Assembly: GCF_001557325.1 (NCBI RefSeq)
Contig: NZ_LSJS01000075.1
Location: 1 to 38,247 of the forward strand
Length of the DNA: 38,247 nt
Source: Erythrobacter donghaensis
GTDB taxonomy: Bacteria; Pseudomonadota; Alphaproteobacteria; Sphingomonadales; Sphingomonadaceae
Reading direction: 5' to 3'
Below, piece after piece: positions 20,782 through 36,745 of this stretch (its first letter is position 1; each line of letters starts with the position of its first letter). The position numbers were made by a program, and so were the translations under genes. A model generated the notes under the pieces. That model did not search any database. It saw nothing but the letters and a program-made list of their open reading frames with translations, and was not told the DNA's origin.

Positions 20782-21489
20782 ATGACGCCGGCCATTCCCT
20801 ATTGCGGCCCCGCGCCGCAGCCGGAGGCGATCGCGGCTGCCTGGAACCTCGATCCGATGGTGCTGGCGGCGCTGGCCCTGTCCGGCTGGGCGCTGCGGCG
20901 GCAAGGCACGGGCGTGCGGATCGGGCTTGGCCTGCTGGCACTGGCCTATGTCTCGCCCCTGTGCGGCTTGAGCGCGGGACTGTTCTCGGCGCGCACCGTG
21001 CATCATCTGGTGATCGTGTTCGGTGCTGCGCCGCTGCTGGCAGGGGCGTTGAAGATCGAGCGGGTGCCGCTGGTGCCCGCGTTCCTGTGCCATCTCGGCG
21101 CGTTCTGGCTGTGGCACCTGCCCGTCGCCTATGACCTGGCCCTGTCGCACGATGCCGCCTATTGGGCCGGACAGATCGCGCTGCTCGCATCCGCTGTTCT
21201 ATTGTGGCGAGCGCTGGGGCAGGACGATCAAGCGCCGACCACCGTGTTCTTCGTCATCGCCGCGATGGTGATGCAGATGGGGATGCTGGGCGCGGTGCTG
21301 ACTTTCGCGCCGGGCGCGCTCTATGTCCCGCATTACCTGACCACCGCGCGTTACGGGATCGGCGTGCTGGCCGATCAGCAGATGGCCGGTCTGTTGATGT
21401 GGGTCGGCAGCCTGCCTCTGACGGTTGCCGCGGCATGGCCCCCTTTGGCGCGGCTGGCGCAGCAAGCGCGCGGCAGGCTTGCGGGCTAG
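20782..21489 (+). CDS. ctaG: CtaG family cytochrome c oxidase assembly protein (caa3-type)
   Basis: A 235-residue protein with about six membrane helices. It fits the caa3_CtaG family: YVSPLCGLSAGLFSARTVHH, then LVIVFGAAPLLA, FWLWHLPVAYD, and a late YGIGVLADQQMAGLLMW. Bacillus CtaG is needed for caa3 oxidase assembly, probably for copper delivery to CuB. This is not the Cox11-type CtaG. The gene precedes copD by 3 bp and the oxidase structural genes by 1 kb, which supports the role. Confidence 0.85.
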   Translation: MTPAIPYCGPAPQPEAIAAAWNLDPMVLAALALSGWALRRQGTGVRIGLGLLALAYVSPLCGLSAGLFSARTVHHLVIVFGAAPLLAGALKIERVPLVPAFLCHLGAFWLWHLPVAYDLALSHDAAYWAGQIALLASAVLLWRALGQDDQAPTTVFFVIAAMVMQMGMLGAVLTFAPGALYVPHYLTTARYGIGVLADQQMAGLLMWVGSLPLTVAAAWPPLARLAQQARGRLAG

Positions 21490-21492
21490 GCG

Positions 21493-22005
21493 ATGCTGTG
21501 GCTGAAATTCGTCCACATCGCCGGGATCTCCATCTGGATCGCCGGGCTGCTCTATCTCGCCGCGCTGCTGGCCGGGCACGCGGCGGTGCGCGACGCGCAG
21601 GACTTTGCCCGCATCCGCATGGCGAGCCGGTTTGCCTATATGGGCGTGGTCTCGCCTGCCGCCTTTGTCGCCGTCGCAGCGGGGACCGCGCTGTTGTTCG
21701 TCAGCGATGCGCTGCATCCGTGGATGTTCGCCAAGCTGGCTGCGGTGACCGTGCTGGTGATCGTGCACGTCCAATATGCCTATGTCCTCACCCATCTCGC
21801 CGACGAGGGCGCGCAGGCACCGACGCTGCGGATCAGGATGATGGTCGCCGCGATCATCGCTGCGGCGGCGGCGGTGCTTTATCTGGTGCTGGCAAAGCCG
21901 GTGCTGGATGCCGACGCGCTGCCCCTCTGGCTGCGCGAGCCGGGCGTCATGTCACGCGCGGAAGCTCCGGTGGCGGCTCTTCCTTCGATCCGTCATCGAC
22001 AATGA
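21493..22005 (+). CDS. CopD family membrane protein
   Basis: A 170-residue protein with four helices. The opening LKFVHIAGISIWIAGLLYLAALL with its helix-1 histidine and the SRFAYMGVVSPAAFVAVAAG segment resemble the CopD/HemJ-like family. Residues after about 145 are soluble and low-complexity. CopD relatives act in copper handling or heme steps; here the position between ctaG and the oxidase suggests copper supply to the oxidase. Its last 59 bp overlap the end of the convergent DUF2231 gene. Confidence 0.7.
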   Translation: MLWLKFVHIAGISIWIAGLLYLAALLAGHAAVRDAQDFARIRMASRFAYMGVVSPAAFVAVAAGTALLFVSDALHPWMFAKLAAVTVLVIVHVQYAYVLTHLADEGAQAPTLRIRMMVAAIIAAAAAVLYLVLAKPVLDADALPLWLREPGVMSRAEAPVAALPSIRHRQ

Positions 22006-22462
22006 TCCCGATGCCATGTTCGAACACCAGCCGCCCGCCTTGCCAGCCTGCGATCCCGACCAGCACGAGACCGCCTGCCGACAGCAGCAGGCCCCACGGC
22101 AGGATTGCGGCTTCGCCATGAAGCAGTCGCCAGCCCCAGTTCGCGCCGATCACAGCGAGCAGCGACATGGCGGCGACCGCGTGGCTCCAGCTGGCGGGAT
22201 GGCGGCGGATGCCGGGCCCGGCGAGCAGCTCGACCGTGCCCGCCAGCGCCGCCAGCATCCCCATGAAAAAGCCCCAGCCGCTGGTCCACAGGCCCACCCG
22301 CGCAAAGAAGGGATCGGCCAGCAGCAACCAGAAGATGTCCGCGCCCAGCGTGGCGACGATCAGCGCGATGGGAAAGGTCACCAGCATGGCGTGAACCGGG
22401 TGCCCCGCCAGCGCGATGCGCGAGGACACGCCAAGGTTGCTGGCTTCATCGAGACGGGTCAT
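21947..22462 (-). CDS. DUF2231 membrane protein
   Basis: A 171-residue protein with four helices that begins near LAGHPVHAMLVTFPIALI, the conserved DUF2231 opening with its HPxH-like histidines. Other marks are GADIFWLLLADPFFARVGLW and an Asp/Glu-rich soluble tail (DDGSKEEPPPELPR). Family members often lie next to cytochrome oxidase genes and may bind heme or act in electron transfer; this is not proven. It is opposite in strand to copD (3' overlap of 59 bp) and divergent from subunit II, with 57 bp between starts. Confidence 0.75.
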   Translation of the reverse strand: MTRLDEASNLGVSSRIALAGHPVHAMLVTFPIALIVATLGADIFWLLLADPFFARVGLWTSGWGFFMGMLAALAGTVELLAGPGIRRHPASWSHAVAAMSLLAVIGANWGWRLLHGEAAILPWGLLLSAGGLVLVGIAGWQGGRLVFEHGIGIIVDDGSKEEPPPELPRVT

Positions 22463-22519
22463 GCAAGGCTTACCCGGCAAGGATGCACAAGTTGCATCGG
22501 CGCCGCGCGCCCTGCCGCG

Positions 22520-23275
22520 ATGTTCCCCCCGCTTATCGCCCTTGCGGCCTGTTCGGGCGAGCTGTCGGCGCTTGATCCCGCCGGCCCGGCAGCGGCGCGG
22601 GTCGAAACACTGTGGCAGATCATGCTTTGGAGCGCAGCCGTGATCCTCGGCGGCGTGGTCGGAATCGCGATCTACGCCGTCGCCACCAGCGGGCGAGAGC
22701 GCCACTTCTCCACCCGCCGGGTGCTGGTGGGCTGGGGGCTGGTGTTCCCGGGCGTTGTTCTCACCGCGCTGATGGGCTTTGCCTTCCTGCGCGGCGAGCA
22801 ATTGCTGGCGCGGGGCGAGGACGACGAGAGCGCACTCATCCGTGTTCATGCCGAACAATGGCGCTGGCGCTTCGCCTATCCGGGCGGCGCGCAAACCATC
22901 GGCGTGCTGCACGTTCCGGCGGGCCGCGCATTCACCGTCGCGATCACCAGCAGGGACGTGATCCATTCCTTCTGGGTGCCGCGGCTGGGCGGGAAGATGG
23001 ACGCCGTGCCGGGCAAGACCAACCGCCTGCGGCTGCGGGCGGACAGGCCGGGGGTCTATTACGGGCAATGCTCGGAGTATTGCGGGCCCGGCCATGCGCA
23101 CATGCAGTTCCGTGTCCACGCCCATGCGCCCGCCGATTACCCCGCTGCGCTCGCCGCTGCTGCGGGTGATGCTGCCGCCGACCCGCTGCCGGTGCTCGAC
23201 CAGCGCCCCGCCCCGGCGAGCGGGGTGATCGCAGACTGGGCAGACGCCGTGCGCGAAGCGGTGGGCCTCGAATGA
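22520..23275 (+). CDS. coxB: Cytochrome c oxidase subunit II (CuA), lipoprotein
   Basis: A 251-residue subunit II. A lipoprotein signal (MFPPLIALAAC) puts the lipidated Cys at 11. Two helices follow (about 30-55 and 68-90), then a periplasmic cupredoxin domain. The CuA ligands are all present: H149 (VIHSFWVP), C184, E186, C188, H192 and M195 in CSEYCGPGHAHM. The aromatic electron-entry patch is EQWRWRF. There is no fused cytochrome c domain, so an external donor is needed. The ATG at 22520 has a weak ribosome site but gives the signal peptide. Its stop overlaps the next start (ATGA, 23272-23275). Confidence 0.9.
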   Translation: MFPPLIALAACSGELSALDPAGPAAARVETLWQIMLWSAAVILGGVVGIAIYAVATSGRERHFSTRRVLVGWGLVFPGVVLTALMGFAFLRGEQLLARGEDDESALIRVHAEQWRWRFAYPGGAQTIGVLHVPAGRAFTVAITSRDVIHSFWVPRLGGKMDAVPGKTNRLRLRADRPGVYYGQCSEYCGPGHAHMQFRVHAHAPADYPAALAAAAGDAAADPLPVLDQRPAPASGVIADWADAVREAVGLE

Positions 23276-25788
23276 CGGACACGCCGCAGCACAACCGCGC
23301 GCTCGAACTGCATTACGCGCTGCAACCGCTCTATTCCCCGCCGCCGGGTCGGTGGGGCTTTCTGGCGGCGACCAACCACACCGTGGTCGGCACGCGTTTC
23401 ATGCTGACAGCGATAGCGTTCTTCCTGGTGGGCGGCGTGCTCGCCATGCTGATCCGCGCGCAATTGGCGGGGCCGGCGACGCAGTTCCTCGATGCCGAGG
23501 TCTATGCCCAGGTCTTCACCATGCACGGCACGGTGATGATGTTCCTCTTCGCCATTCCCCTGATCGAAGGCTTTGCGCTCTACATGCTGCCCAAGCTGCT
23601 GGGCGCGCGCGACCTTGCATTCCCGCGCCTCAGCGCCTTCGGCTACTGGTGCTATCTGTTCGGCGGGCTGATCCTGCTCGCTGCGCTGCTGGCGGGTGTC
23701 GCGCCCGACAGCGGGTGGTTCATGTACACGCCGCTGTCCTCCAAGCCCTATTCCCCCGGCATCAATGCCGACATCTGGCTGGTGGGGATCACCGTGGTCG
23801 AGGTGTCGGCGGTATGCGCGGCGGTCGAGATCATGGTGACCGTGCTCAAGGTCCGTGCCCCCGGCATGGGGCTGATGCGGATGCCGCTGCTGGCGTGGTA
23901 TCTGTGGGTCACGGCGGCGATGATGCTGGCCGGGTTTCCGCCGCTGATCCTCGGCTCGATCCTGCTGGAGATGGAGCGCGCCTTCGGCCTGCCGTTCTTC
24001 GATCCCACGCGCGGCGGCGACCCCTTGCTGTGGCAGCACCTGTTCTGGCTGTTCGGCCACCCCGAGGTCTACATCATCTTCCTGCCCGCTGCCGGGATCG
24101 TCTCGACCATCCTGCCGGTGTTCTGCGGGCGGCCGATGGCGGGCCACAACTGGATCATCGCCGCTCTGATCGCGCAGGCGCTGCTCAGCTTCGGCCTGTG
24201 GGCGCATCACATGTTCACCACCGGCATCCCGCACCTCAGCCTCGCGGTCTTCTCGGCGGCGAGCCTGCTGGTGGTGATCCCCACCGCGGTGCAGGTCTTC
24301 GCCTGGCTGACGACGCTGCTGAAGGGCCGCCCGGTGATGAGCCTGCCGATGCTGTGGCTGTTCGGGTTCCTGTTCGTGTTCGTCAGCGGCGGGCTGACGG
24401 GGGTGATGGTGGCGGTGGTGCCGTTCGACTGGCAGGTGCACGACACCCATTTCGTGGTCGCGCATCTGCATTACGTGCTGGTCGGCGGCTTCGTGTTTCC
24501 GGTGATCGCGGGGCTGTATTACTGGACGCCGCAATTCACCGGGCGGCGGTCTGACCGGGGGCTCGGCAAGCTCGCGTTCTGGACGGTCTTCGCCGGGTTC
24601 AACCTGACCTTCTTCGTGATGCACTGGACCGGATTGTTCGGGATGCCGCGCCGGGTCTATACCTATGCCGCGGGGCTGGGGTGGGAGGTGCCCAACCTCG
24701 TCTCCTCGATCGGCAGTTTCATTCTGGCGATCGGCTTTGCGCTGATCCTGATCGACATGCTGGTGCAGTGGCGGTTCGCCCCCCATGTGGAGCGCAACCC
24801 CTGGCAGGCCGGAACGCTCGAATGGGCGATGGCGACCCCGGTGACGGCCTACAATTTCGCCAGCCTGCCGCAGGTGACGGCACGCGATCCGCTTGCAGCC
24901 GACCCGGAACTTCCCGCGCATCTCGCCGCCGGGCAGGGCTATCTCGCCGAACCGACAGCGCCGGGGCGGCGCGAGACGCTGGCGGTGACGGCGCTGGAGG
25001 GGGAGCCTGAGCACATCATTATCCTCCCCGCGCCCAGCCTTGTGCCGCTGCTGGCCGCGCTGGCGCTGGTGGGGGCGGCGGTGTGCTTCCTGTTCGGCTT
25101 CTATGCGGGAGCGGTGGCGGGTGCCCTCGCACTGCTTGCCGCCGCCTTGCGGTGGCTGTGGATGACAGGGACGCGCGATGATCCGCGCCCGCTCGACATC
25201 GGCATGGGGCAAAGCCTGCTGCCACACCATGCCGCCGATCAGTCACCGGGCTGGTGGGGCATGGTCTTCACGCTGGTGTTCGACGCGATGCTGCTCGCCT
25301 CGCTGTTGTTCGGCTATGTCTATCTGTTGGCGGTCGCGCCGGTTCGGCCGCCTGTGCTGGTCGATCCTGATCTTGCCGTGGCGGGCCTGATCCTCGCAGG
25401 TCTGGCAGCGCTGGCGGGGGCAGAGGTGGCGGTGCAGGCCAACCGTACGGCGCGCGAGGGGCTGCGCCTCGCGGCCCTGATCGTTGTCGCAATCGGAGGC
25501 GCTGCGGCGGCGAGCGGCTTCGCGCTGATCCCGCTCTGGCTCTCCCCGCCCGCAGGCAGCCATGCCTATGCGGCCTGCGTGTTGGCCCTGTCGCTGTTCG
25601 CCGCGCTCCATGCCGGGCTGGCCGCCGTCGGCGCGATGCTTGTCGCCGCGCAATGCCGGGCGGGCTTTGTCTCGGCGTCCAAAGCCGGCGCGCTGAGAAT
25701 CCTGCGGCTGTGGTGCCGGTTTGTCGGCGCGGCGGGAACGGTTGTCCTTATCGCGACCTACTTGCCGCCCTGGCTGGCACCGGCCTGA
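23272..25788 (+). CDS. ctaD: Cytochrome c oxidase subunit I-III fusion
   Basis: An 838-residue heme-copper oxidase. Residues 20-530 are subunit I: low-spin heme ligands H85 (FTMHGTVMMF) and H400, CuB ligands H263, H312 and H313, the cross-linked Y267 and D-channel E265 in FGHPEVY, and high-spin heme ligand H398 (VVAHLHYVL). These mark an A-type oxidase. Residues 620-835 have subunit III-like helices (WWGMVFTLVFDAMLLASLLFGYVY). The fusion of I and III in one chain is known for some caa3-type oxidases. Start codon overlaps the subunit II stop. The cluster lacks Cox11, SURF1 and heme A synthesis genes, which must be elsewhere. Confidence 0.92.
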   Translation: MTDTPQHNRALELHYALQPLYSPPPGRWGFLAATNHTVVGTRFMLTAIAFFLVGGVLAMLIRAQLAGPATQFLDAEVYAQVFTMHGTVMMFLFAIPLIEGFALYMLPKLLGARDLAFPRLSAFGYWCYLFGGLILLAALLAGVAPDSGWFMYTPLSSKPYSPGINADIWLVGITVVEVSAVCAAVEIMVTVLKVRAPGMGLMRMPLLAWYLWVTAAMMLAGFPPLILGSILLEMERAFGLPFFDPTRGGDPLLWQHLFWLFGHPEVYIIFLPAAGIVSTILPVFCGRPMAGHNWIIAALIAQALLSFGLWAHHMFTTGIPHLSLAVFSAASLLVVIPTAVQVFAWLTTLLKGRPVMSLPMLWLFGFLFVFVSGGLTGVMVAVVPFDWQVHDTHFVVAHLHYVLVGGFVFPVIAGLYYWTPQFTGRRSDRGLGKLAFWTVFAGFNLTFFVMHWTGLFGMPRRVYTYAAGLGWEVPNLVSSIGSFILAIGFALILIDMLVQWRFAPHVERNPWQAGTLEWAMATPVTAYNFASLPQVTARDPLAADPELPAHLAAGQGYLAEPTAPGRRETLAVTALEGEPEHIIILPAPSLVPLLAALALVGAAVCFLFGFYAGAVAGALALLAAALRWLWMTGTRDDPRPLDIGMGQSLLPHHAADQSPGWWGMVFTLVFDAMLLASLLFGYVYLLAVAPVRPPVLVDPDLAVAGLILAGLAALAGAEVAVQANRTAREGLRLAALIVVAIGGAAAASGFALIPLWLSPPAGSHAYAACVLALSLFAALHAGLAAVGAMLVAAQCRAGFVSASKAGALRILRLWCRFVGAAGTVVLIATYLPPWLAPA

Positions 25789-25822: not shown

Positions 25823-26461
25823 ATGCCATCCAGTGCCTTGACGATCATGGCGAAAGCCGCCCTGCCGCTCGTCCTGCTGGCAGGCTGCGATGTCGGCACC
25901 AGCCCCTTCGCGACAGCCGATGATGCGCCAGTCGAATACCGCCCGCAAGAGGCAGGAACGGTGGATCACGCGCTGTGCCTGCTCGGTTTTGCGGCTGTGC
26001 CGGTGCGCAATGTCAGGCCGGGGCACCAGCTTGTCGAAGCGACGATCAACGGCGTGACCGGCGACTTCGTGCTCGATACCGGCGCGAATGTCACGGTCGT
26101 GAATGCAGCGCAGGCCGAACGGTTCGGCCTGTCGGCGGAGGGGGGAGGCGTGCTCGGCTCAGGTCCGGCCCTCTTCTCCGGGGCCTCCGGCACCGCGCGC
26201 CAGGCGCGGGTCGACAGCTTCACGCTCGGCCAGTTCGCCATCCGCCAGCGCCGGGTGCTGATAGCCGATCTTGGCCAACTGCTTGGCGTGCTGGGACAGG
26301 CCTCAGGGCGCGAGGTTTCGGGCATAATCGGGCAGGACATCCTGGAAGAACACCGCGCCATCATCGATGTGCCGCGCCCGATGCTCTATCTGATGAAGGA
26401 AGACCGCGATCCTTCGCCTGTGCCCGCGGAACGGTGCGAAGCCGCACCGCAAACCAGGTGA
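25823..26461 (+). CDS. Retropepsin-like aspartyl protease family lipoprotein
   Basis: A 212-residue protein with a lipoprotein-like signal (LPLVLLAGC, Cys 22) and a single-domain pepsin-like fold. The catalytic motif is FVLDTGANVTVVN with Asp 85, and a family Gly-rich motif IIGQDILEEHRAIID follows near residue 180. Such enzymes are expected to act as homodimers. The start at 25823 was chosen by the signal peptide and the cgggag site 9 nt upstream. It lies 34 bp after the oxidase gene, possibly in the same transcript. Substrate unknown. Confidence 0.82.
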   Translation: MPSSALTIMAKAALPLVLLAGCDVGTSPFATADDAPVEYRPQEAGTVDHALCLLGFAAVPVRNVRPGHQLVEATINGVTGDFVLDTGANVTVVNAAQAERFGLSAEGGGVLGSGPALFSGASGTARQARVDSFTLGQFAIRQRRVLIADLGQLLGVLGQASGREVSGIIGQDILEEHRAIIDVPRPMLYLMKEDRDPSPVPAERCEAAPQTR

Positions 26462-26814
26462 AGGCTTTACCCAGAGTCGTTCCCATAGGCCGGAGCAGCG
26501 GCCGGGCGGATCTGTCGGACCGCCGAATATGCCGCGACGCGCTGTTTCTGAGCACTCGGCTCCTCGTCAGCGCCGAGGAGCCGACCTACCAGCGCTGGGA
26601 CGAAGCGGTTGATTGCAAGCGAAATGTTGAATGACTGCTTCTGCCCTGAGCCGACAAGGCGCATTCATTCGCGAGCCTCGGCATAGTCACAGCTAGGGGG
26701 CCTGTTCCTGATCGGCGAGTCTTGGCCAGCGCTTGGATTGCGCCGCAAGCCTGTTCTCCAGGAACATTCCCCAGCGGTGTCCGGATAGGGACGATAGGCC
26801 ACAGGGCTGCTCGA
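26462..26814. other. Intergenic region with no recognised gene
   Basis: About 350 bp between the convergent aspartyl protease and DoxX genes. Short frames on both strands have no family similarity I can name. ggctcctcg...cgaggagcc (26560-26583) can form a 9-bp hairpin with a short loop, a possible bidirectional stop. The rest may be decayed DNA. Confidence 0.4.
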
Positions 26815-27297
26815 CTAGCGGAAAACCAGCTGGTCGAGCGCTACCTTGCCGCCGCCCATCGCGATGAGCGGCAACAGCAAGCCAGCCCACGACAGATGGG
26901 TCGGCCAGGCGTCGGGGTAGACGAAGACCTGGATCACCAGCGTCATCGTCAGCAGGGCAAGGGCCGAGAACCGGGTGAAGAGTCCCAGCACCAGCAGAAC
27001 CGAGAACAGGTGTTCGGCCACAGTCGCGGAAACGGCTGCAAACTCGGGCGGGATCAAGGGCAGGGCGTATTCGAACCGGAACAGTTCGTAGGTGCTTTCC
27101 GGAATGGTGAACCACCCCTCCACCTTGGTGCGGGCCGACTGGTAGAAGATCGCGGCGATCCCCAGCCGCTGAACCAGCAGCAACAAGGAAAGCGGAAGCA
27201 AAGTGCCGAGCGTGGCCTGGAACTTCGCGATCGGATTGTCCGGCATGGCCGGAGTAGCGCCGGAGTTTGGTGCGGCATCGGTCATCGCGGGGTGCAT
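26815..27297 (-). CDS. bufD: DoxX family protein of the bufferin operon (BufD)
   Basis: A 160-residue membrane protein with four helices. [21 protein letters not shown] holds the DoxX motif, [22 protein letters not shown] is the central pair, and [16 protein letters not shown] follows. It is the last gene of a four-gene set DUF2282-DUF692-DUF2063-DoxX. In that set the DoxX gene is called bufD and is probably an accessory in bufferin-mediated copper protection, with no proven reaction. An aagga site fits ATG 27297; GTG 27300 directly before is an alternative. It starts 12 bp after the bufC stop. Confidence 0.85.
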
Positions 27298-27309
27298 CAC
27301 TTCATCCTT

Positions 27310-28035
27310 TCAGTTGGCGAGCGCGGCAAAGGCGCCGCAATTGACAAGTCGGCCGAAACCGGCCCCGATATCGGCATCCGGGTAAAGCGAGGCGGCGGCC
27401 TGCGCGGCCGCCCCCAGCGTTTCTCCCATCCGCATCCCGGCGAGCAGGCGGTGGCTGGGGGAATCGAGTTCAAGGCCGCACACCGCGACGCCCGGACGGG
27501 CAAAGATGGCGCCTCCTGATCGCCACTCCGGGGCAAATTCACCCTCCAGCCCCTGCTGATGGGCCAGCCAGATCGCCATGGCCGGCGTCGTGAACCAGCC
27601 GAAGCGCGTGGCCGGATGGGGCTTCAGCCGCAGCGCCAGCAGCCGTTCGGGCGTCAGCGCAGCGAGCGCATCGCCTTCGAGCACGGGCGCATCCGGGGCG
27701 AACAGCGCTTGGCAGTGCAGTTGCTCGCAGCGAGCGACATCAACAAGATAGGGCAGCTCGCGGCTCGCGCCTTGCTGCGCCAGCCAGTCGGGGAATTCCT
27801 GGCCATAGAGCGCCAGGACCGGCCCCTGAGGCGGATTGGCGCGCGCGAAGGCAAGCGCCAGCGCCTCGAAGCTGCGCGGGCCGACGATTTCGCGGGTTAC
27901 CGGGTAATTCGCCGCCAGCGCATCGAGCGCACCGAGCAACACCGTGTTGACATAGACCTGAACGGGTGAGGCGGCGAGCGTCGGCTGCGCCAACTGGTCA
28001 GCAAATTGCCTCTGGAAGGCGGCAAGCTCAGGCAT
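27310..28035 (-). CDS. bufC: DUF2063 protein, partner of the MNIO enzyme (BufC)
   Basis: A 241-residue protein. Residues 1-95 are the DUF2063 domain: LAAFQRQFADQL, VQVYVNTVLLGALDALAANYP and GPRSFEALALAFARANPP are typical. The C-terminal half is a helical DUF2063-associated domain ending in FGRLVNCGAFAALAN. Such proteins bind the RiPP precursor and partner the MNIO enzyme as a recognition subunit. Its ATG lies inside the last codons of bufB (8-bp overlap), a sign of coupled translation and equal amounts of the two subunits. Confidence 0.87.
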   Translation of the reverse strand: MPELAAFQRQFADQLAQPTLAASPVQVYVNTVLLGALDALAANYPVTREIVGPRSFEALALAFARANPPQGPVLALYGQEFPDWLAQQGASRELPYLVDVARCEQLHCQALFAPDAPVLEGDALAALTPERLLALRLKPHPATRFGWFTTPAMAIWLAHQQGLEGEFAPEWRSGGAIFARPGVAVCGLELDSPSHRLLAGMRMGETLGAAAQAAASLYPDADIGAGFGRLVNCGAFAALAN

Positions 28036-28864
28036 CGTCTCTCTCCTCGATCGTGGCGGCCGCGATGGCTTGAGCGGCTCTGTGTTGTTCGCGCAGCAAC
28101 GCGGCGAATGGGGGCACGTCGCGATCCCGTTCGATCAGCACCGGGCGTGGTCCATGTGCGGCGAAGAAGCCTTCGAGCAGCCCCCAGACCGGTTCGCCGA
28201 CGGGGGCATCATGGCTGTCGATCAGCAGATCCAATGCGGCATCGGGACTGTGCCCGGCGATGTGGATCTCGCCCACCGCGGCGCCCGGGAAGGCGGCGAG
28301 ATAGGCATGGGGATCGAACCCGAGATTGGCTGCGCTGACATGGACGTTGTTGAGATCGAGCAGCAGGCCGCAGCCGGTCCTGCGGGCCAGTTCGACCAGA
28401 AATTCGGTCTCGCTCCACTCGTGACCCTCGAGCGCGAGATAATGCGAGGGGTTCTCGATCAGCAGCTGCCGGCCCAGCAGGGACTGCGCGAAATCGATGT
28501 TGCGGCAGACGGTTTCCAGCGCCTCGCTGGTGCGCGGAAAGGGCAGCAGGTCGGGGTAGCTCCGGCCATCCATCCGCGACCAGGCAAGATGTTCGGAAAT
28601 CAGGAACGGCTCGAATCGCCCGATCAGCGCCTTGAACGCGGCGAGATGCTCGACATCGGGCAATTCATGGCCCGCGAGCGACATGCCGACCCCGTGCAGC
28701 GACAGCGGCCGGGCGGCGCGGGCCTCGTCGAGCATGGAAAGGCGGGGGCCGCCTGCGACCATGTAGTTCTCGGCATGGACCTCGAACCACAATCCCGCCG
28801 CCGGCGAGGCCAGGGCCTCGGCGATATGGCTGGCCTTGAGGCCCACGCCGGCGGTCGGAATCAT
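28028..28864 (-). CDS. bufB: DUF692 multinuclear non-heme iron oxidase (MNIO), bufferin maturase BufB
   Basis: A 278-residue TIM-barrel enzyme of the MNIO (DUF692) family, related to MbnB and TglH. Probable iron ligands are spread as in the family: H57 (SLHGVGMSL), H92 (ISEHLAWS), E137 (IENPSHYL), D170 and H175 (LLDLNNVHVSAANLGFD), H201 and H205 (EIHIAGHS), D217/H218 (DSHDAPV) and E245 (LIERDRD). In characterised bufferin systems the MNIO converts precursor cysteines to thiooxazoles. It begins 31 bp after the DUF2282 gene and overlaps bufC, so precursor, maturase and partner are one operon. Confidence 0.92.
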   Translation of the reverse strand: MIPTAGVGLKASHIAEALASPAAGLWFEVHAENYMVAGGPRLSMLDEARAARPLSLHGVGMSLAGHELPDVEHLAAFKALIGRFEPFLISEHLAWSRMDGRSYPDLLPFPRTSEALETVCRNIDFAQSLLGRQLLIENPSHYLALEGHEWSETEFLVELARRTGCGLLLDLNNVHVSAANLGFDPHAYLAAFPGAAVGEIHIAGHSPDAALDLLIDSHDAPVGEPVWGLLEGFFAAHGPRPVLIERDRDVPPFAALLREQHRAAQAIAAATIEERDDA

Positions 28865-28895
28865 GGCCGGTCAACCTGGCCAGGTGGCCGCAGCC

Positions 28896-29174
28896 TCAGC
28901 GGGCCTTGGGGGTCAGCGACCCCGTCCCGTTGGGCGTGCGAATCTTGGTGCAGGTGCCCTTGTCGACGTACTTCCAGGCATTGCCCTGATAGTCGCGGCG
29001 CGAGGTTCCCGCACAGCTGGTGCCGGGACCGGCGGCGCAGTCGTTCTTGCCGGCCTTGGCGATGCCGTAGCACTTTTCCTTGTTGGGCTGGTGCGGCACG
29101 GGGCCCGCGTGGGCCACGCCGCCCAGCAGCATCGCCGCCAGTGCGGTCGCGGCGAGGGTCGTCTGGTTCTTCAT
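28896..29174 (-). CDS. bufA1: DUF2282 bufferin precursor peptide (BufA1)
   Basis: A 92-residue precursor. Residues 1-25 are a signal peptide ([16 protein letters not shown]), a trait that sets bufferins apart from most RiPPs. The core holds four cysteines: [21 protein letters not shown] and KGTCTKI, the family pattern for copper-binding modified peptides. ATG 29174 was preferred because aagga lies 7 nt upstream; ATG 29180 adds two residues. Its role, from the studied Caulobacter systems, is to export a modified peptide that sequesters copper in the periplasm. Modification and metal binding are inferred here, not seen. Confidence 0.9.
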
Positions 29175-29202
29175 GGTCATTTCCTTTCAATAGGTTGCAA
29201 GA

Positions 29203-29261
29203 CCCCTTTCGGGGCGGCGTCCTGTCCTCCGGGGGGATAGGGGCTTGGGACAGGACGCCGC
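29203..29261. promoter_or_regulatory. Perfect 14-bp inverted repeat and GAAA-loop hairpin in front of bufA1
   Basis: gcggcgtcctgtcc (29214-29227) pairs exactly with ggacaggacgccgc (29248-29261) with a 20-nt loop. Immediately downstream in the bufA1 direction, the minus-strand reading ccccgaaagggg (29214-29203) forms a 4-bp stem with a GNRA tetraloop, about 22 nt before the ribosome site. Either the terminator of the cupin gene, an operator, or a leader structure that raises bufA1 mRNA stability. Confidence 0.6.
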
Positions 29262-29312
29262 GGATGCCGGCGCAAGGGTCAGGGCGCCGGCACCGGTTCC
29301 TGGCCTTGACGA

Positions 29313-29768
29313 TCACATCTGGTGGAAGACGTCCGAGCTGAGCAGCACGGCGGGTTCGGTGCCTTCGTTGATCCACCAGTGCGAGATCCCGTCCGCCTCG
29401 CGCGCGATGTCGCCGGCGCGGTGGACGATCGGCACCGCGCAGCTGCTGCGATGTTCGGTGATCTGGCCGCTGATGGTGATGATCAGCGCCGGACGATCCT
29501 TGTGGCCGTGCATCGGGACGATGCCGCCGGGCTGGACGACGAGGCGGCGGGTCCGCAGCAGGCGGCCCTTGACGCCGATTTCATCGCCCAGGTCGATCGA
29601 GCCGATCACGGTGTCGGTCACGTCCTTGGGCATGGTCGGCGCGCCGCGCAGAGCGGTGGCGGCGGGCACTTCCATGCCCTGCGGGCAATCGGCAGCCTGG
29701 GCCGGAGCGGCAAAGGCGAAGGGTGCAGCAAGCACCAGAGCGGAAACGAGTGTCTTCTTGGACATCAT
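29313..29768 (-). CDS. Secreted cupin-domain protein
   Basis: A 151-residue protein with a signal peptide (MMSKKTLVSALVLAAPFAFAAPAQA) and one cupin barrel. Cupin motif 1 is PGGIVPMHGHKDRPALIITISG with two histidines in HGHKDRP; motif 2 is less clear (AGDIAREADGISHWWINEG). Two cysteines (in AADCPQG and SSCAVP) may form a disulfide in the periplasm. It is on the same strand as bufA1 and 139 bp upstream, so it may be co-regulated; a role in copper or redox handling is only a guess. Confidence 0.8.
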   Translation of the reverse strand: MMSKKTLVSALVLAAPFAFAAPAQAADCPQGMEVPAATALRGAPTMPKDVTDTVIGSIDLGDEIGVKGRLLRTRRLVVQPGGIVPMHGHKDRPALIITISGQITEHRSSCAVPIVHRAGDIAREADGISHWWINEGTEPAVLLSSDVFHQM

Positions 29769-30012
29769 GGCAATCCTTGTTCGAGGCGTCTGGCCTCAGG
29801 GAAAACGGGTGGCGAGAGTTTGCCCCTCGACGCTTCCAGTTTCCCCGCGGGGACCGCTCCTTTCCAATCGGATTGCCGCATCGAAGCCATGCCGACCGCG
29901 CATGGAGAGCCGCGCCATAACGGCGCTGCATCGAAGGGCAAACCAATCGGCATTTCAGCTGGCGAGCGGGATTCCGCAGTTTCTGAGGGCCACTTCAATC
30001 GAGGATCGCCTC

Positions 30013-30834
30013 ATGACTTCCCCCCAGACCGCCTCTCACGTCACCACTCCCCGTCCGCTCAAAGGCCAGCTGGCGCTTGTCACGGGTTCGACCAGCGGCA
30101 TCGGGCTCGGCATCGCCCGGGCTCTCGCCGGCGCCGGTGCGAATGTGATCCTCAACGGTTTCGGATCGCCCGACGATATCGCCGCGACGATCGCCTCGCT
30201 CCAGGAACTGGGTGTCACTGTCGAACATGATGCCTCCGACCTCCTGAGCGCCCAGGGCGCCGCGGCGATGGTCGAGGGTGCGATCCAGCGCCACGGCCGG
30301 ATCGACGTTCTGGTCAACAATGCCGGGATCCAGCACGTCAGCCCGATCGAGACTTTTCCGGTCGATCGCTGGGATGCGATCCAGGCGCTGAACCTTGGCG
30401 CGGCGTTCCACACCATCCGGGCCGCTATGCCCGCGATGAAGGCGGCGCGGTCCGGGCGGATCATCAACGTGGCGTCGGCCCACGGGCTGGTCGCGTCCCC
30501 CTACAAGAGCGCATACGTCGCCGCCAAGCACGGCGTGCTCGGCCTCACGAAGACCGTTGCGCTCGAAGCTGCGCGCGAAGGCATCACCTGCAACGCGATC
30601 TGCCCGGGCTATGTCTGGACCCCGCTGGTCGAGCATCAGGTCGCCGACACGGCGAAGGCACGCGGCCTGACCGAAAAGCAGGTGATCGAGGATGTCCTGC
30701 TCGCCGCACAGCCAAGCAAGCGCTTCGCGACGGTCGAGGAAGTCGGCGCGCTGGCGCTGTTCCTTGCGAGCCCTCTGGCCGCGTCGATCAACGGCGCAGC
30801 CATCCCGATCGACGGCGGATGGACCGCGCAGTAA
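30013..30834 (+). CDS. bdhA: D-3-hydroxybutyrate dehydrogenase
   Basis: A 273-residue classical SDR. The cofactor loop is VTGSTSGIGLGIA, NNAG lies near 102, catalytic S155 is in NVASAHG, and Y168/K172 in YKSAYVAAKHG. The stretch GLVASPYKSAYVAAKHG and the CPGYVWTPLVEHQ segment are hallmark D-3-hydroxybutyrate dehydrogenase sequences. It interconverts 3-hydroxybutyrate and acetoacetate with NAD in PHB breakdown. Length is slightly above the typical 260 because of a 15-residue N-terminal addition. The stop is 1 bp from the ndh ATG (30836), and a patatin gene follows; the three form an operon. Confidence 0.9.
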   Translation: MTSPQTASHVTTPRPLKGQLALVTGSTSGIGLGIARALAGAGANVILNGFGSPDDIAATIASLQELGVTVEHDASDLLSAQGAAAMVEGAIQRHGRIDVLVNNAGIQHVSPIETFPVDRWDAIQALNLGAAFHTIRAAMPAMKAARSGRIINVASAHGLVASPYKSAYVAAKHGVLGLTKTVALEAAREGITCNAICPGYVWTPLVEHQVADTAKARGLTEKQVIEDVLLAAQPSKRFATVEEVGALALFLASPLAASINGAAIPIDGGWTAQ

Positions 30835-30835
30835 G

Positions 30836-32161
30836 ATGGTCAGCACCTCTACGCCGAACGGATCGCGCGTGGTTATCATCGGAGCCGGGTTCGGCGGGCT
30901 TGCTGCGGTTCAGGCGCTCGCCAGTGCTCCGGTTGCGATCACCCTGATCGACCAGCGCAACCACCATCTGTTCCAGCCGCTGCTGTATCAGGTCGCCACC
31001 GCCGCGCTGTCGCCGGCGGACATTGCCGGGCCGATCCGCTCGATCCTGGCCGGTCAGGACAATGTGCGCGTGTTGCTCGACACCGTCGTCGGGATCGATC
31101 GTGACCGGCGCGAGGTGCTGCTGGCGAGCGGCAGGCGCGCGGGATATGACTGGCTGATCATCGCGACCGGCGCGCGCCACAGCTATTTCGGGCGCGATGA
31201 ATGGGCGGCCTATGCGCCCGGCATCAAATCGATCGAGGATGCGACCGCCGTGCGGCGCAAGGTGCTGCTGGCGCTGGAACGCGCCGAAAGCGAAGACGAG
31301 CCTGACCGGCGCAAGGCCTTGCTGACCTTTGTGCTTATCGGCGGCGGCCCGACCGGGGTCGAGATGGCCGGCGCGATCGCCGAACTGGCGCATCGATCGG
31401 TCAGCCGCGATTTCCGATCGATCACGCCGCATTGCTCGAAGGTGATCCTCATCAACCGGGGGCCGCGCCTGCTCGAGACCTTTCCCGAGGAGCTTTCCGC
31501 CGCGGCGCTCGCCGATCTCGAGCGGCTTGGCGTGGACGTGCGCCTGTCGACCGAGGTCGATCACATCGACGCCGAGAAAGTGGTTGCCGGAGGGGAGACC
31601 ATCCGCACCCATACGGCAATCTGGGCCGCCGGGGTCGTCGGCTCTCCTGCCGCGCGCTGGATTGGCGCCGAGGCGGACCATGCGGGCCGAGTCAAGGTCG
31701 ACCACACGCTCCACCCGGCAGGCGAGAGCCGCATCTTGGTGATCGGCGATACTGCCAGCTGCACGGGGGCCGACGGCCGGCCATTGCCCGGGATCGCGCC
31801 GGTTGCAAAGCAGCAGGGGCGGTATGCCGCCCGGACGATCATCGCCGAAATCGCAGGTCGGCCGACGCGCCCGTTCCGTTACCGCCACTACGGCAACCTC
31901 GCGACGATCGGACGCAGCCACGCCGTGGCCGATCTGGGCCGCATGAAGCTTCGCGGCATGTCGGCATGGCTGCTGTGGTCGACCGTGCACGTCTACTTTC
32001 TGGTCGGGTTCCGCAGCCGCTTCGTCGTTGGCCTCAATCTGATCTGGAATTACCTTACCTTCGCCCGCCACGCCCGGCTGATCACGGGTGATCTCGATCA
32101 CACCGGTCCGTCCCCAGCCCCGCGCATCACAGATGGAGAAAGCTATGTTCAAGCTGCATGA
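30836..32161 (+). CDS. ndh: Type II NADH dehydrogenase (NDH-2)
   Basis: A 441-residue flavoprotein. It has two Rossmann motifs: VVIIGAGFGGLAAVQAL (FAD, residues 12-28) and FVLIGGGPTGVEMAGAI (NADH, about 162-178), and a FAD-closing VIGDTASC near 302. HHLFQPLLYQVATAALSP is a family hallmark. The C-terminal helices LRGMSAWLLWSTVHVYFLVGF and the following amphipathic stretch attach it to the membrane. It passes electrons from NADH to quinone without pumping protons. It starts immediately after bdhA, so it may re-oxidise the NADH made by hydroxybutyrate oxidation. Confidence 0.9.
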   Translation: MVSTSTPNGSRVVIIGAGFGGLAAVQALASAPVAITLIDQRNHHLFQPLLYQVATAALSPADIAGPIRSILAGQDNVRVLLDTVVGIDRDRREVLLASGRRAGYDWLIIATGARHSYFGRDEWAAYAPGIKSIEDATAVRRKVLLALERAESEDEPDRRKALLTFVLIGGGPTGVEMAGAIAELAHRSVSRDFRSITPHCSKVILINRGPRLLETFPEELSAAALADLERLGVDVRLSTEVDHIDAEKVVAGGETIRTHTAIWAAGVVGSPAARWIGAEADHAGRVKVDHTLHPAGESRILVIGDTASCTGADGRPLPGIAPVAKQQGRYAARTIIAEIAGRPTRPFRYRHYGNLATIGRSHAVADLGRMKLRGMSAWLLWSTVHVYFLVGFRSRFVVGLNLIWNYLTFARHARLITGDLDHTGPSPAPRITDGESYVQAA

Positions 32162-33284
32162 CGAACTTGCCGAGCGCGGCCAGATTGTCCTGGTGTTCCA
32201 GGGCGGCGGAGCGCTGGGAGCCTATCAGGCCGGTGTCTACCAGGCGTTGCACGAGGCGGGCATCGAACCCGACTGGGTGATCGGCACCTCGATCGGTGCG
32301 GTCAATGCCGCATTGATCGCCGGCGCGCCCAGGAGCGAGCGGGTCGCGCGGCTCGACGAATTCTGGAGCCGGGTCTCGAACGGCAAGTTCATGGGCCTTC
32401 CGGTGCCCGACTGGATCGGGCTGCCGATGCGCAACATGATGACCATCACCAGCGGCCTGTCATCCTTCTTCCGCCCACGGCCTCTGGCCTTCGCCAATCC
32501 CTTCCTTCCGCTCGGCGCCGAATCCTCGGCCTATTACTCGGTCGAACCGCTGCGCGAACTGCTCGGCGAGCTGATCGATTTCGGTCGGATCAATTCGGGA
32601 CCGATGCGGCTTTCGGTCGGCGCAGCCAAGGTCCAGTCCGCAGAGATGGTCTATTTCGACAGCCGGGATGCGGCGATCTGCCTCGAACACGTGCTGGCAT
32701 CGGGCGCGCTGCCCCCTGCCTTTCCGGCGGTCCGGATCGACGGAGAACTCTACTGGGATGGCGGAATTCTGTCCAACACGCCGGTCGAAGCGGTGTTCGA
32801 CGACAATCCGCGCAGGAGCGGGACGGTCTTTGCCGTGCACCTGTGGAACCCGCACGGACCCGAACCCGACTCGATCTGGCAAGTGATGAACCGCCAGAAG
32901 GACCTTCAGTATTCCAGCCGGGCAGCGCAGAACATCAAGCGTCAGCACCAGCTCCACCGCTTGCGCCATGTGGTCACCGAGCTCGCAGCACTCGTGCCCG
33001 ACGGTGCTGCATCGCCCGAACGGCTCGCCGAACTGCGCAGCTATGGTTGCAGCACCCGGATGGATGTGATCCGTCTTCTGGCGCCCTCGCTCGATAACGA
33101 GGATCATTCCAAGGATATCGACTTCAGCCCCGACGGCATCCGTCTGCGTCGCGAGGCCGGGTATCGCCACACGCTCGATGCGCTCGAACAGGCGCCATGG
33201 CGGCGGGGGAGCGGGCCGCTGGACGGGCTGGTCCTGCACGAGATCTGCGGAGGTGAGATGATCCATGGCGATAACGCCAAATAG
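32145..33284 (+). CDS. Patatin-like phospholipase with DUF3734 C-terminal domain
   Basis: A 379-residue protein. The patatin fold shows GGGALGAYQAG (oxyanion hole, residues 20-30), nucleophile S49 in GTSIG, and catalytic D205 in WDGGILSN. The C-terminal third (SRAAQNIKRQHQLHRL, then DFSPDGIRLRREAGY) is the DUF3734 domain. ATG 32145 was chosen because ggagaa lies just upstream; it overlaps ndh by 17 bp. This gene type often accompanies bdhA, and a role in lipid or PHB granule metabolism is inferred, not shown. Confidence 0.88.
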   Translation: MFKLHDELAERGQIVLVFQGGGALGAYQAGVYQALHEAGIEPDWVIGTSIGAVNAALIAGAPRSERVARLDEFWSRVSNGKFMGLPVPDWIGLPMRNMMTITSGLSSFFRPRPLAFANPFLPLGAESSAYYSVEPLRELLGELIDFGRINSGPMRLSVGAAKVQSAEMVYFDSRDAAICLEHVLASGALPPAFPAVRIDGELYWDGGILSNTPVEAVFDDNPRRSGTVFAVHLWNPHGPEPDSIWQVMNRQKDLQYSSRAAQNIKRQHQLHRLRHVVTELAALVPDGAASPERLAELRSYGCSTRMDVIRLLAPSLDNEDHSKDIDFSPDGIRLRREAGYRHTLDALEQAPWRRGSGPLDGLVLHEICGGEMIHGDNAK

Positions 33285-33342: not shown

Positions 33343-34044
33343 ATGACCCATCCCTTGATTGCAGCGCTCGACGACACGTTCCAGAAAGTCCGGAGCAAGG
33401 ATTGGCCGCTGAGTGACCGCCTTCGTGCAATTGCCGAAGAAGTGCGTCTGCGCAGTCCGGAGTTCGCCGATGCGGTCGACACCTTCGTTGGCCGGCTTGA
33501 AGCCGCGCGCGCGGGGACCGGAGCGCCCCAGGTCGGCGACCTCATGCCGGGTTTCACGATGCCCGATCAGGACGGCACGCTCATCAGCCTTGATGAGATA
33601 TTGGAGCGCGGCCCGGCGGTTCTGGCCTTTCATCGCGGGCACTGGTGCCCCTATTGCCGCCTCAACATGGTCGGGCTCGCCGAGATTCAGGGCCAGTTGG
33701 GCGATGCACGGATTTATGCGATCTCGGCCGAACTTCAGCCCTATACGCGCAAGTTGCGCGCAGAATCCGGTGCCCGCTTTCCGTTCCTGACCGATATTGA
33801 TGGGGGCTATGCGCTGGCGGCAGGACTGGTGATCTGGGTCGACGAGGTGATGTCCGCGATGATCGCCGGGGCCGGATGGGATATCCCTGGCTACCAGGGC
33901 GGTGCAGGCTGGCTGCTGCCGGTGCCCTCGGTCTTCATCCTCGACCGGGACGGGATCGTCCGCACCCGCCATGTCGATCCCGACTACCGTCGGCGGATGG
34001 GGCTGGATTCGATCGTCGCCGGCGTGCGGGCTCTGGCGGATTGA
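33343..34044 (+). CDS. Peroxiredoxin-like AhpC/TSA family protein
   Basis: A 233-residue protein with an N-terminal helical extension (1-60) and a thioredoxin-fold peroxiredoxin domain (65-230). The active site reads FHRGHWCPYCRLN, C102 and C105 as a CxxC, which is unlike the single-cysteine VCP motif of typical AhpC and closer to thioredoxin-like redox chemistry. VPSVFILDRDGIV is the conserved family strand. Likely a peroxide or disulfide reductase. A caggagtc site precedes the ATG by 6 nt. It lies 58 bp after the patatin gene, perhaps in the same operon. Confidence 0.83.
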   Translation: MTHPLIAALDDTFQKVRSKDWPLSDRLRAIAEEVRLRSPEFADAVDTFVGRLEAARAGTGAPQVGDLMPGFTMPDQDGTLISLDEILERGPAVLAFHRGHWCPYCRLNMVGLAEIQGQLGDARIYAISAELQPYTRKLRAESGARFPFLTDIDGGYALAAGLVIWVDEVMSAMIAGAGWDIPGYQGGAGWLLPVPSVFILDRDGIVRTRHVDPDYRRRMGLDSIVAGVRALAD

Positions 34045-34083: not shown

Positions 34084-34980
34084 TCATTTGGCGAGGCGCG
34101 CTTCCCAATCCGCAGCCCGGACCAGCCCCAGCAGCGCGGCCGCCTCGCGCGAGCGGGCACGGCCGGCGATCGAATAGACGGCAACCGTCCGCCGCAGATC
34201 GATCCCCGGGCAAGGCATGTGCCTCAGCCCGCTCGAGCGGAAGCTGCTGCGCGGCAGGATTGCGACACCGAACTTGGCCTCGACAAGGGCTTCAAGATCG
34301 CGGTTGCAGTTGACCTGGTGGGCGTCGTCGAACCGCATCCCCCATGCCTCGAGCGAGGCCGCATTGATCTCGGCACCATCTTCCAGCGCGTGAACCAGCA
34401 GTCGCGAGCGCTGCAACAGTTCGACCTGCAGATCGACGTCGTTAATGGTCGAAAGGGTGTGATCATTGGCGATCACGAGATCGAAGGATTCGCTGAACAT
34501 GGGCCAGGCATTGAGCCGGTCCCAATTGTCGCCGAGCGGTCCGCCGAATGCGATCTCGATGTCGCCGGCCTTCAGCCATTCGGCGATGTCCTTGCCGCCG
34601 CCGCGCCGGATCACGAGCTGGAGCCCGGGAAAGGCGCGCTGCAGCTCGGACAGGGCGAACAGCAGGACTTCGACATCAAGGGTCTGCGACACGCCGATCG
34701 ACAGGCTCGAGATGTCCCCGGCCCTGACCTTGGCGGCGAGCGCCTTGGCGCCCTGCGCGCTTTCATAACATTGGGTCAGCGGCGGCAGCATCCTTGCCCC
34801 AAGATCGGTCAGGTGACTGAGGCGCCCTTCGCGGCGGATCAATTCGCCGCCCAGTTCCTGCTCGAGCTGCTTGATCGCGCGGGTCAGCGCGGGCTGGGTG
34901 ACGTTGCATGCCTCGGCCGCGCGCGTGAAGTTGAGTGTTTTCGCTACTGCCAGAAAATAGCGGACCTGCTGCATTTCCAT
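34084..34980 (-). CDS. LysR family transcriptional regulator
   Basis: A 298-residue LysR regulator. The HTH is at 1-60 ([20 protein letters not shown] and [18 protein letters not shown]); the effector domain follows, with typical [14 protein letters not shown]. It lies on the minus strand 42 bp after the YeeE gene, so it is probably the last gene of DUF302-YeeE-LysR. It converges with the peroxiredoxin gene (39 bp between ends). Its target cannot be told; sulfur or oxidant response is plausible from the neighbours. Confidence 0.87.
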
Positions 34981-35022: not shown

Positions 35023-36003
35023 CTAGCGAGCAATCGACCCTATGAGTCGTCTTTTGCGCAATTCCGCACTCGCGAGCAAGCCTGCTGCAATGGTGAGCGC
35101 CATGGTAGCGATCGCAAGCCAGGCGTGCGGCTGCAGCCAGGGCAAGCCGGCAAGGATCAGGTTGTCGTTGCCGCCGGGGATCAGCGCGCTGCCGAGCCCC
35201 ATCAGCGCCCCGCCTGCAAGGCAGGTGGCTGCGCGCCGCGGCAAGAACTGGAAAGCGGTTGCCGATCGCCAACCTCCCAGAACAGCGCCGCCAAGCAATG
35301 CAAGCAAAAGCAGGACATTGTCGATCCCGGGCAACCCGGTCCCATGGGCCGACCGCGTCAGCGCCTCGGTGTATGTCCAGGGCCCCGCCACCACGACCAG
35401 AGCGACAAAGGCGACGCCGATCGCGATGGTGGCGTGGCGGTGGTTCCACAGCGTGCCGATCGGCAATCGGGAGCGGCGGACCTCGCGGCATTCGCGCAAG
35501 CTGACCAGCAGGCTGCCGGCAAACAGCACCAGCAGCGCGGCGATTGCCGGGCCAGAGACCGGCGCAGGGGAGATGCCCTTGACCACCGGCCCCGCCAGTG
35601 CGGCGTGGAGCAGGCTGCCGAGAAAGAAGCCCGGCGGGGTCAGCAGGAAGTGAAGCTCGCGGTTGCCGATCCGCGCAATCGCGCCGAAGACACAGGCACC
35701 GTTGAGCCATGCCCCGAGCCCGAGCATCGCCCCTCCCAGCATCACCGTTGCGCCCGCCGGGTAGCTCGGACTGGCATTGAAGCCCAGTCCGGCAGCAGTT
35801 GCCGCCAGACCCAGCGCCGCCACCCACAAGCTGCATTCGAGCAGCGCAAGCGCGCGTCCGCCGCGTCCTTCGTCAAGCAACTGGCGGACCGCCGCGACCA
35901 TGCAGGTCCCGCCGCGCTGGATCGAGAAGCCCATCATCGCGGCGCAGCATATCGCGACCGCCAGGATCGCGGGATGGTCCGGGTCGATCACGCCGCCAGC
36001 CAT
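35023..36003 (-). CDS. YeeE/YedE family protein (thiosulfate/sulfur transport-like)
   Basis: A 326-residue integral membrane protein with about nine helices. Family motifs are GFSIQRGGTCMVAAVRQLLDEGR (C34) and GAWLNGACVFGAIARIG (C104), the cysteines that in YeeE line the thiosulfate path. The third YeeE site is replaced by ALIPGGNDNLILAGLP, so one thiol of the usual relay is missing and the substrate may differ. The start at 36003 follows gaggaggg. It ends 42 bp before the LysR start and begins 26 bp after the DUF302 gene. Confidence 0.83.
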   Translation of the reverse strand: MAGGVIDPDHPAILAVAICCAAMMGFSIQRGGTCMVAAVRQLLDEGRGGRALALLECSLWVAALGLAATAAGLGFNASPSYPAGATVMLGGAMLGLGAWLNGACVFGAIARIGNRELHFLLTPPGFFLGSLLHAALAGPVVKGISPAPVSGPAIAALLVLFAGSLLVSLRECREVRRSRLPIGTLWNHRHATIAIGVAFVALVVVAGPWTYTEALTRSAHGTGLPGIDNVLLLLALLGGAVLGGWRSATAFQFLPRRAATCLAGGALMGLGSALIPGGNDNLILAGLPWLQPHAWLAIATMALTIAAGLLASAELRKRRLIGSIAR

Positions 36004-36029
36004 GCCAGCCCCCTCCTCACCCGAGCAGC

Positions 36030-36536
36030 TCAGCGCCCGGTGGCGGCGCTGGCGATGGACAGAGCGACTTCGCTCGCCATCTTGAACTGCGGGCCCTTGT
36101 CGGTGATCGCATAGCGATCGGCGATGTAGGCAAAATCCGTCCACGCCACCCAGACGCTGCCGTCAGCCTCCTCGAGCACCAGCATCCGCACCGGCCAGTC
36201 GAGTCCGGCATAGGGGTTCGATTGCAGGAACTGCACACCGAGCGGCGGGTTGCCGAACAGCACCAGCGTGGAGCGTGCCGTCTTGAGATCGGCCTGCGCG
36301 CCAAGGCCCGACTGGTCGATCGCGTCGAAGAAGCGAATGCCCTTGGCCTGGACATCCGCCTTGAGCCGGACCAGCGTCTCGTCGAAGCTGTTGGCGCTCT
36401 TCAGGCGTACGACGCCGGCCGCCGGGGCCACCATCCGGGTGGCGCCGCCCTCTTGCGTCTGGGCAGCAACGGCCCCCGGGACGGCGACAATCGCGGCAGT
36501 CACGAGCGCAAGAATTGCGCGAAATTTTGGGGGCAT
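36030..36536 (-). CDS. Secreted DUF302 domain protein
   Basis: A 168-residue protein with a cleavable signal (VTAAIVAVPGAVAAQ, to about residue 26) and a DUF302 domain. The domain signature is the SFDETLVRLKADVQAKGIRFF stretch, then LVLFGNPPLGVQFLQSNPYAGLDWPVRMLVLE and WTDFAYIADRY. DUF302 proteins are small alpha-beta folds often found in sulfur and metal operons, with no known reaction. ATG 36536 was chosen over the longer frame because it opens the signal peptide. First gene of the minus-strand set. Confidence 0.85.
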   Translation of the reverse strand: MPPKFRAILALVTAAIVAVPGAVAAQTQEGGATRMVAPAAGVVRLKSANSFDETLVRLKADVQAKGIRFFDAIDQSGLGAQADLKTARSTLVLFGNPPLGVQFLQSNPYAGLDWPVRMLVLEEADGSVWVAWTDFAYIADRYAITDKGPQFKMASEVALSIASAATGR

Positions 36537-36745
36537 ATGGAGTTCCCTTCCGGAATGATTTGATGTCCGGTTTTTGTCATTCTGCCGCGGCTGGCTCAAA
36601 TGCAGTTGGCGAATGGAATCCATGACGGATGCACATCACGGCGCGGCGGCGCCGTTCCGGCTGCATCGATCCGATGCAATCCCGGCATTTTCTATGCGGA
36701 CATCGGAGGGGCAGAGTGAGGGCCTCGAACCGAGAGGAGATTGCC

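Follow-up and report, generated by a model that had tools for sequence, protein, structure and literature searches.

A bufferin operon of Erythrobacter donghaensis in a conserved sphingomonad gene cluster with a candidate LysR-type switch

Thousands of bufferins are reported in sections of PMC12452194, with a precursor, an MNIO enzyme, a DUF2063 protein and a DoxX protein as their core genes, and the same sections describe these peptides as sequestering copper via thiooxazoles. The control of Buf1 operons described so far in the sections of the literature consulted involves extracytoplasmic function (ECF) sigma factors and NrsF, and the sigma-F box of Caulobacter is given in part of PMC3511200 as GTAACC-N16-CGAA. 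The locus analysed here lies in a 38,247-nt stretch of Erythrobacter donghaensis DNA (contig NZ_LSJS01000075.1), referred to below as the window, in which bufA-bufB-bufC-bufD occupy positions 26815-29174 of the minus strand. Given the thousands of bufferins with the same core, this gene set is an ordinary Buf1 bufferin operon and, as far as our searches go, a known kind of operon in an unreported setting. The buf genes match the bufferin families, would make a periplasmic copper-binding thiooxazole peptide, and stand in a cluster conserved in some sphingomonads; the LysR-type protein encoded at 34084-34980 likely switches this cluster via a GCAT-N7-ATGC site. To this reading, drawn from sequence comparison, a probability of about 0.7 was assigned. 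If there is a second wiring, with regulator gene and site both named, it would tell which stress the peptide serves; the neighbouring genes suggest envelope redox damage and not simply copper load.

The bufferin operon and its described relatives

The first gene, bufA (28896-29174), encodes the DUF2282 bufferin precursor with an apparent Sec-type signal peptide and four cysteines; it is followed by bufB (28028-28864) for the MNIO (DUF692) maturase, bufC (27310-28035) for the DUF2063 partner protein and bufD (26815-27300), which has a GTG start, for the DoxX membrane protein. The sequence-only reading of this DNA had proposed a complete bufferin operon with these four families in this order on one strand, and the hidden Markov model search that it had set beforehand as a refutation test was run and supported every family. 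Scores lay above the curated Pfam cut-offs throughout: 90.3 bits against 22.4 for DUF2282, 310.4 against 25 for PF05114 (MbnB_TglH_ChrH), 72.4 against 27.2 for DUF2063 and 62.5 against 23.6 for DoxX. BufB also passed the NCBIfam model NF050167, 'MNIO family bufferin maturase' (340.8 bits, cut-off 310), and was below the cut-off of the NCBIfam models HvfB, ApyH, MbnB and ChrH; it could be aligned with both MbnB and 3bww, a solved DUF692 protein. The Buf1 set is thus complete by family models.

The bufB and bufC frames overlap by 8 nt, bufC and bufD are 9 nt apart and bufA and bufB 31 nt apart. The bufA start given earlier, 29174, was retained: judged by eye, its distance to AAGGAA is more suitable than that of the in-frame ATG at 29180. 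Cleavage of the signal peptide, also read by eye, is expected between AHA and GPVP. The four cysteines follow the spacing C-x10-C-x7-C-x18-22-C in the window BufA and in 77/77 BufA proteins of more than 75 residues (79 were collected, and the shorter ones of loci L042 and L044 were left out), in agreement with the conserved pattern claimed before. In L042 (about 9712-9985) an in-frame stop appears to cut bufA after the second cysteine, though the alignment runs on. By analogy with studied relatives, BufB with BufC would turn the two central cysteines into thiooxazoles by oxidation, a disulphide would link the outer pair, and the peptide, once exported, would tie up copper.

As far as it is described in parts of PMC12452194 and PMC3511200, the Buf1 operon CC3254-CC3257 of Caulobacter resembles that of the window in its four gene families and their order, in the four conserved cysteines and, by eye, in the signal peptide, whereas the window is without sigF-nrsF and the GTAACC-N16-CGAA box and carries a cluster with a LysR-type regulator instead. 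The captophorins in sections of PMC13097082 (oxazolin with HvfA/B/C/X, fontiphorin, gonophorin) likewise join an MNIO enzyme to a DUF2063 partner and DoxX, and thiooxazole chemistry would be expected in both cases; in contrast to them, the window precursor is a DUF2282 protein with no EGKCG repeats, and the window proteins scored below the NCBIfam cut-offs for HvfB (205 against 360), HvfC (34.6 against 142) and HvfX (43.6 against 80). Since peptides of Fontimonas, Haemophilus and Neisseria are treated there and Microbulbifer is the subject of a further paper, the earlier remark that few such peptides are studied outside Caulobacter is dated. MbnB of the methanobactin system belongs to the same enzyme superfamily as BufB, but the MbnB model gave 49.1 bits against a cut-off of 325, and neither MbnC nor a methanobactin precursor was seen in the window.

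The nearest BufB relatives come from Novosphingobium, Sphingobium and other sphingomonads, with identities from 70 % downwards; the best 80 of 234 loci, in stretches of 3.5-20.8 kb, served as the BufB locus set. Relatives of BufB were found in 352 of 72,556 plasmid records and in none of 50,697 phage records. Two loci (L062, L063) have three BufB-like genes within 20 kb, spread over several partial buf sets. A second Buf1 arrangement was seen in many of the sphingomonad-type loci L155-L183, where bufA and bufD stand together and a divergent, distant bufB is about 42-49 % identical to that of the window.

A shared cluster, its LysR-type regulator gene and a candidate operator

Of the 80 BufB loci, 15 share wholly or partly a set comprising a cupin, 3-hydroxybutyrate dehydrogenase (a short-chain dehydrogenase, SDR), a type 2 NADH dehydrogenase (NDH-2), a patatin-like protein, DUF302 and YeeE proteins and a LysR-type regulator; the cupin of the window stands near buf in 12 of the 80. 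A locus was placed in this cluster class if it had the cupin, or patatin with NDH-2, or the LysR-type regulator. The members L003, L005 and L069 are partial, and L028, L065, L067 and L079 (NDH-2 alone or with weak SDR matches) and L057 (LysR-like protein 37 %, redoxin 32 %) were excluded. The order in L001 is that of the window (DUF302, YeeE, LysR, redoxin, patatin, NDH-2, SDR, cupin, bufABCD); buf lies behind patatin in L003, L007, L008, L010 and L042 and beside the regulator in L006, L011 and L013.

The cupin occurs in 13 of 396 genomes of the order. Of nine newly met cupin genomes, seven (L199-L201, L203-L206) combine the cupin with SDR, patatin and regulator; in L202 the cupin stands with patatin, and L207 shows no more than a distant cupin. 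Three of these nine genomes (L199, L200, L203) have a complete bufABCD within 10 kb. In L204 and L206 bufA is directly next to bufC with no BufB match, and in L205 another bufA, with bufB and bufD, comes after a bufA-bufC pair; for bufA-bufC pairs of this kind, with no BufB match between the two genes (L204, L205, L206), a maturase encoded elsewhere may serve.

Comparison of upstream DNA revealed a near-palindrome, GCAT[CTG]GA-N4-ATGC, recurring at the promoters of the cluster. A first, stricter palindrome, GCATSGANTCSATGC, matched in 2 of 5 genomes only, and the pattern was loosened. In the window the candidate operator GCATCGAAGCCATGC (29878-29892, plus strand) lies between the cupin and the SDR gene, and a second candidate, GCATCGATCCGATGC (36663-36677, plus strand), 39 bp before DUF302. 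In the discovery loci the site precedes the cupin in 12/13, bufA in 10/17 and DUF302 in 5/11, counts that are partly circular. L003 and L023 entered the set on account of the site itself, and the window figures in both the cupin and the bufA counts. The non-circular figures come from ten loci chosen by homology of cupin or regulator and not by the site, in which it was found at 5/10 cupin and 5/7 bufA promoters; shuffled upstream regions gave it in 7/3300, and bufA loci of the divergent-bufB arrangement in 0/29. Across 29 aligned sites, chosen by eye and hence biased, a symmetric T (24/29) and A (26/29) stand 17 bp either side of the centre.

The regulator encoded at 34084-34980 on the minus strand, here called subtype A, matched HTH_1 and the substrate-binding domain. 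Known LysR sites, such as those of BenM and OxyR, are 4-7-4 palindromes, and the dyad GCAT-N7-ATGC has the same form. The window protein shares both domains with regulators of the BenM and OxyR type and differs from them in its target genes; none of the NCBIfam LysR models reached its cut-off, the best among the matches listed scoring 25 against 52. Subtype A relatives, 53-75 % identical, occur in L001, L002, L005, L016 and L208, and the remaining cluster loci with a regulator match have a subtype B protein; subtype A was met in 2 of 99 genomes. Over the first 62 residues the two subtypes agree at 45 positions (73 %), against 63/231 (27 %) over the remainder, and an unrelated LysR protein of the window agrees at 25/62 (40 %) over the first part. 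The recognition helix is nearly the same in both subtypes, beside the same site. Mainly because different sensor domains thus share one reading head beside one site, the site was assigned to the local regulator, and the protein encoded at 34084-34980 likely owns the candidate operator. Neither this protein nor the site had been noticed in the sequence-only reading.

Control of the operon and competing explanations

The exact sigma-F box was found on the bufA strand within 300 nt upstream of bufA in 1/15 loci of the cluster class against 32/60 outside it, and with one mismatch allowed in 3/15 against 42/60. These counts cover 75 loci, L020 and L079 being without a BufA start and five loci having too little upstream DNA; the Fisher value of the contrast, 0.001, overstates it because the loci are related. 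With no SigF or NrsF match and no sigma-F box in the window, sigma-F control of its operon was rejected. These patterns lead us to infer that a LysR-type switch acts alongside sigma-F/NrsF or in its place. No paper on LysR control of bufferins was found among open-licence papers, which is weak evidence of absence, and the words 'LysR' and 'regulator' are absent from the main text of PMC12452194.

From the anatomy of the locus, the regulator would govern both directions from the site at 29878, with cupin-bufABCD read leftward and 3-hydroxybutyrate dehydrogenase, NDH-2 and patatin rightward. The copy of the site before DUF302-YeeE-LysR suggests autoregulation, the regulator reading its own operon from 36663. 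A fuller version stands at about even odds: a LysR regulator reading GCAT-N7-ATGC would run, in place of sigma-F, an envelope redox-stress programme of which the bufferin is one arm; the exported three-histidine cupin, NDH-2, 3-hydroxybutyrate dehydrogenase, a redoxin, DUF302 and YeeE would belong to it too, and two regulator lineages would have exchanged the sensor domain and kept the reading head and the site. The signal may, as a guess, be envelope redox damage, possibly from copper or reactive chlorine, since the redoxin and NDH-2 neighbours fit. NDH-2 can reduce copper, which is a lead only.

Several observations weigh against LysR control of the operon. The window bufA has no site in the 300 nt upstream; the nearest precedes the cupin, and readthrough across two strong hairpins would therefore be needed. 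The site was present at 0/8 DUF302 promoters in the homology-chosen loci; none of the three promoters of L002 has an exact site, and neither L202, L207 nor L208 has one. In L004, L015 and L199 the regulator and SigF-NrsF are both present, and regulators of transcription close to clusters of this kind are already mentioned in sections of PMC13097082. Since the loci are related, the site counts are not independent. Across 14 genomes the pattern occurred 64 times forward and 50 times in reverse (palindromes being counted on both strands) against 9 for the reversed control, and 35 of the 43 places viewed lie inside open reading frames (ORFs) by a crude caller, which also labels the window site at 29878 as coding, the SDR ORF being read too long. 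The idea of a genome-wide regulon defined by pattern search was dropped on this account; the site marks the cluster, and a wider regulon is not supported by the 14-genome search.

The hairpins bear directly on the possibility that buf is transcribed from a promoter of its own in the 132-nt gap that follows the cupin gene, one that answers copper through a known sensor or is of the sigma-70 type, and that only the neighbourhood is shared. The first lies at 29263-29294 and the second, with 14-bp perfect arms, at 29214-29261, both GC-rich and on the minus strand (region z = -4.39). Hairpins of different sequence stand at the same place in L001, L002 and L016 (region z -2.3 to -4.8), so that strong hairpins separate cupin and bufA in 4/4 loci with this order. 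Together with the lack of a LysR site, and of a sigma-F box even with one mismatch, upstream of the window bufA they speak for a separate promoter; yet a crude scan of 26400-30100, of a type that often misses promoters of these bacteria, gave no sigma-70-like promoter, and bufA genes placed elsewhere than behind the cupin often have a site of their own (9/15 in the class). An own promoter is regarded as unlikely. The hairpins may set the ratio of cupin to bufferin.

It seems rather unlikely that the GCAT-N7-ATGC site is real and read by a regulator encoded elsewhere, with the local LysR protein merely travelling along. L003, L010 and L023 have a site before bufA and no LysR match in the examined stretch, and L005 and L208 have a subtype A regulator without an exact site; but L003 and L010 are short or cut contigs, the near-identical recognition helices stand beside the same site, and in L006 and L011, where the regulator is divergent from bufA, the site lies between the two. 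The rarity of the cupin, and the greater rarity of the subtype A regulator, would suit a cluster kept by descent or by a mobile element without a common function. This appears quite improbable, however, given that buf stays linked and comes with the site in three gene orders or more. A peptide that remains unmodified, or whose task is a metal or stress other than copper, would accord with parts of PMC3511200, where the Caulobacter sigma-F genes answer chromium and cadmium, and of PMC7907618, where a DoxX/DUF2063 operon of H. influenzae answers hypochlorite through RpoE2; against it stand the copper sequestration by thiooxazoles described in PMC12452194 and the uniform cysteine spacing, and such a peptide is considered distinctly doubtful.

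Neighbouring genes and the tRNA-Gln repeat

The cupin gene (29313-29768) is on the same strand as bufA. Its product looks exported and has an HxH motif and a later histidine, kept in 23/23 homologues; on these grounds it likely binds a metal. On the plus strand follow the SDR gene (SDR2, 30013-30834; TIGR01963 355.9 bits, cut-off 307.05), the NDH-2-type gene (30836-32161, start chosen by eye; Pyr_redox_2 164.3 bits, NDH2_C 34.5 against 27.7), a patatin-like protein with DUF3734 (32088-33284, ORF limits) and an AhpC/TSA-family redoxin (33343-34044; 66.4 against 26). Beyond the regulator, on its strand, lie a YeeE/YedE-type sulphur transport protein (35023-36144, ORF limits; 62.9 against 27) and the DUF302 protein (36030-36623; 47.6 against 23).

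On the other side of the operon, genes for CtaG, UPF0093, COX2 and a protein of COX1-COX3 length occupy 20782-25788 on the plus strand. The sequence-only reading was right that an oxidase, here a cytochrome c oxidase gene set, adjoins the buf operon, but a link between the two found no support: COX1/3, COX2, CtaG, UPF0093 and an aspartyl protease had no match in 80/80 BufB loci in the examined stretches, so the neighbour carries no weight, and an oxidase-bufferin link was rejected. A CtaG gene was found in 18 of 296 genomes and in none of the 13 cupin genomes, two samples that overlap only partly. The oxidase is an incidental bystander outside the conserved unit.

A tRNA-Gln (TTG) gene lies at 14680-14754 on the plus strand, 12 kb from bufD. 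Its 3' end (14737-14755), 18-19 nt, recurs exactly 22.7 kb away at 37460-37478, beyond the operon; by arithmetic, a given 18-mer is expected by chance in a window of this size about once in a million. The segment 14755-37478 (22.7 kb) therefore encloses the operon. The placement between two exact copies agrees with the earlier description as a tRNA-site island; the island itself is likely and unproven, because no integrase was among the window ORFs scanned (short ORFs at 14755-15247 were listed only) and no empty site was shown. The kinase-like gene on the right flank, used in the search for an empty site, has homologues that are 38-43 % identical and non-syntenic, and arm-like repeats near both segment ends are weak.

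The left-end DNA (14756-15247) had no plasmid match and matched 2 of 199 genomes, one of which, G103, has a tRNA-Gln gene followed by about 96 nt of downstream DNA similar to the window (77 %). Beyond this similar DNA, G103 (L240-L241) carries a run of metal-efflux-like genes, judged by eye, and an insertion sequence. In the window, 15248-17737 is a single ORF of 829 residues, in which an epimerase-like part is combined with a VKOR domain and with a match to the SPW repeat that stays below cut-off. A second DoxX-family gene (8948-9484) stands next to a flavodoxin-fold gene outside the 14755-37478 segment.

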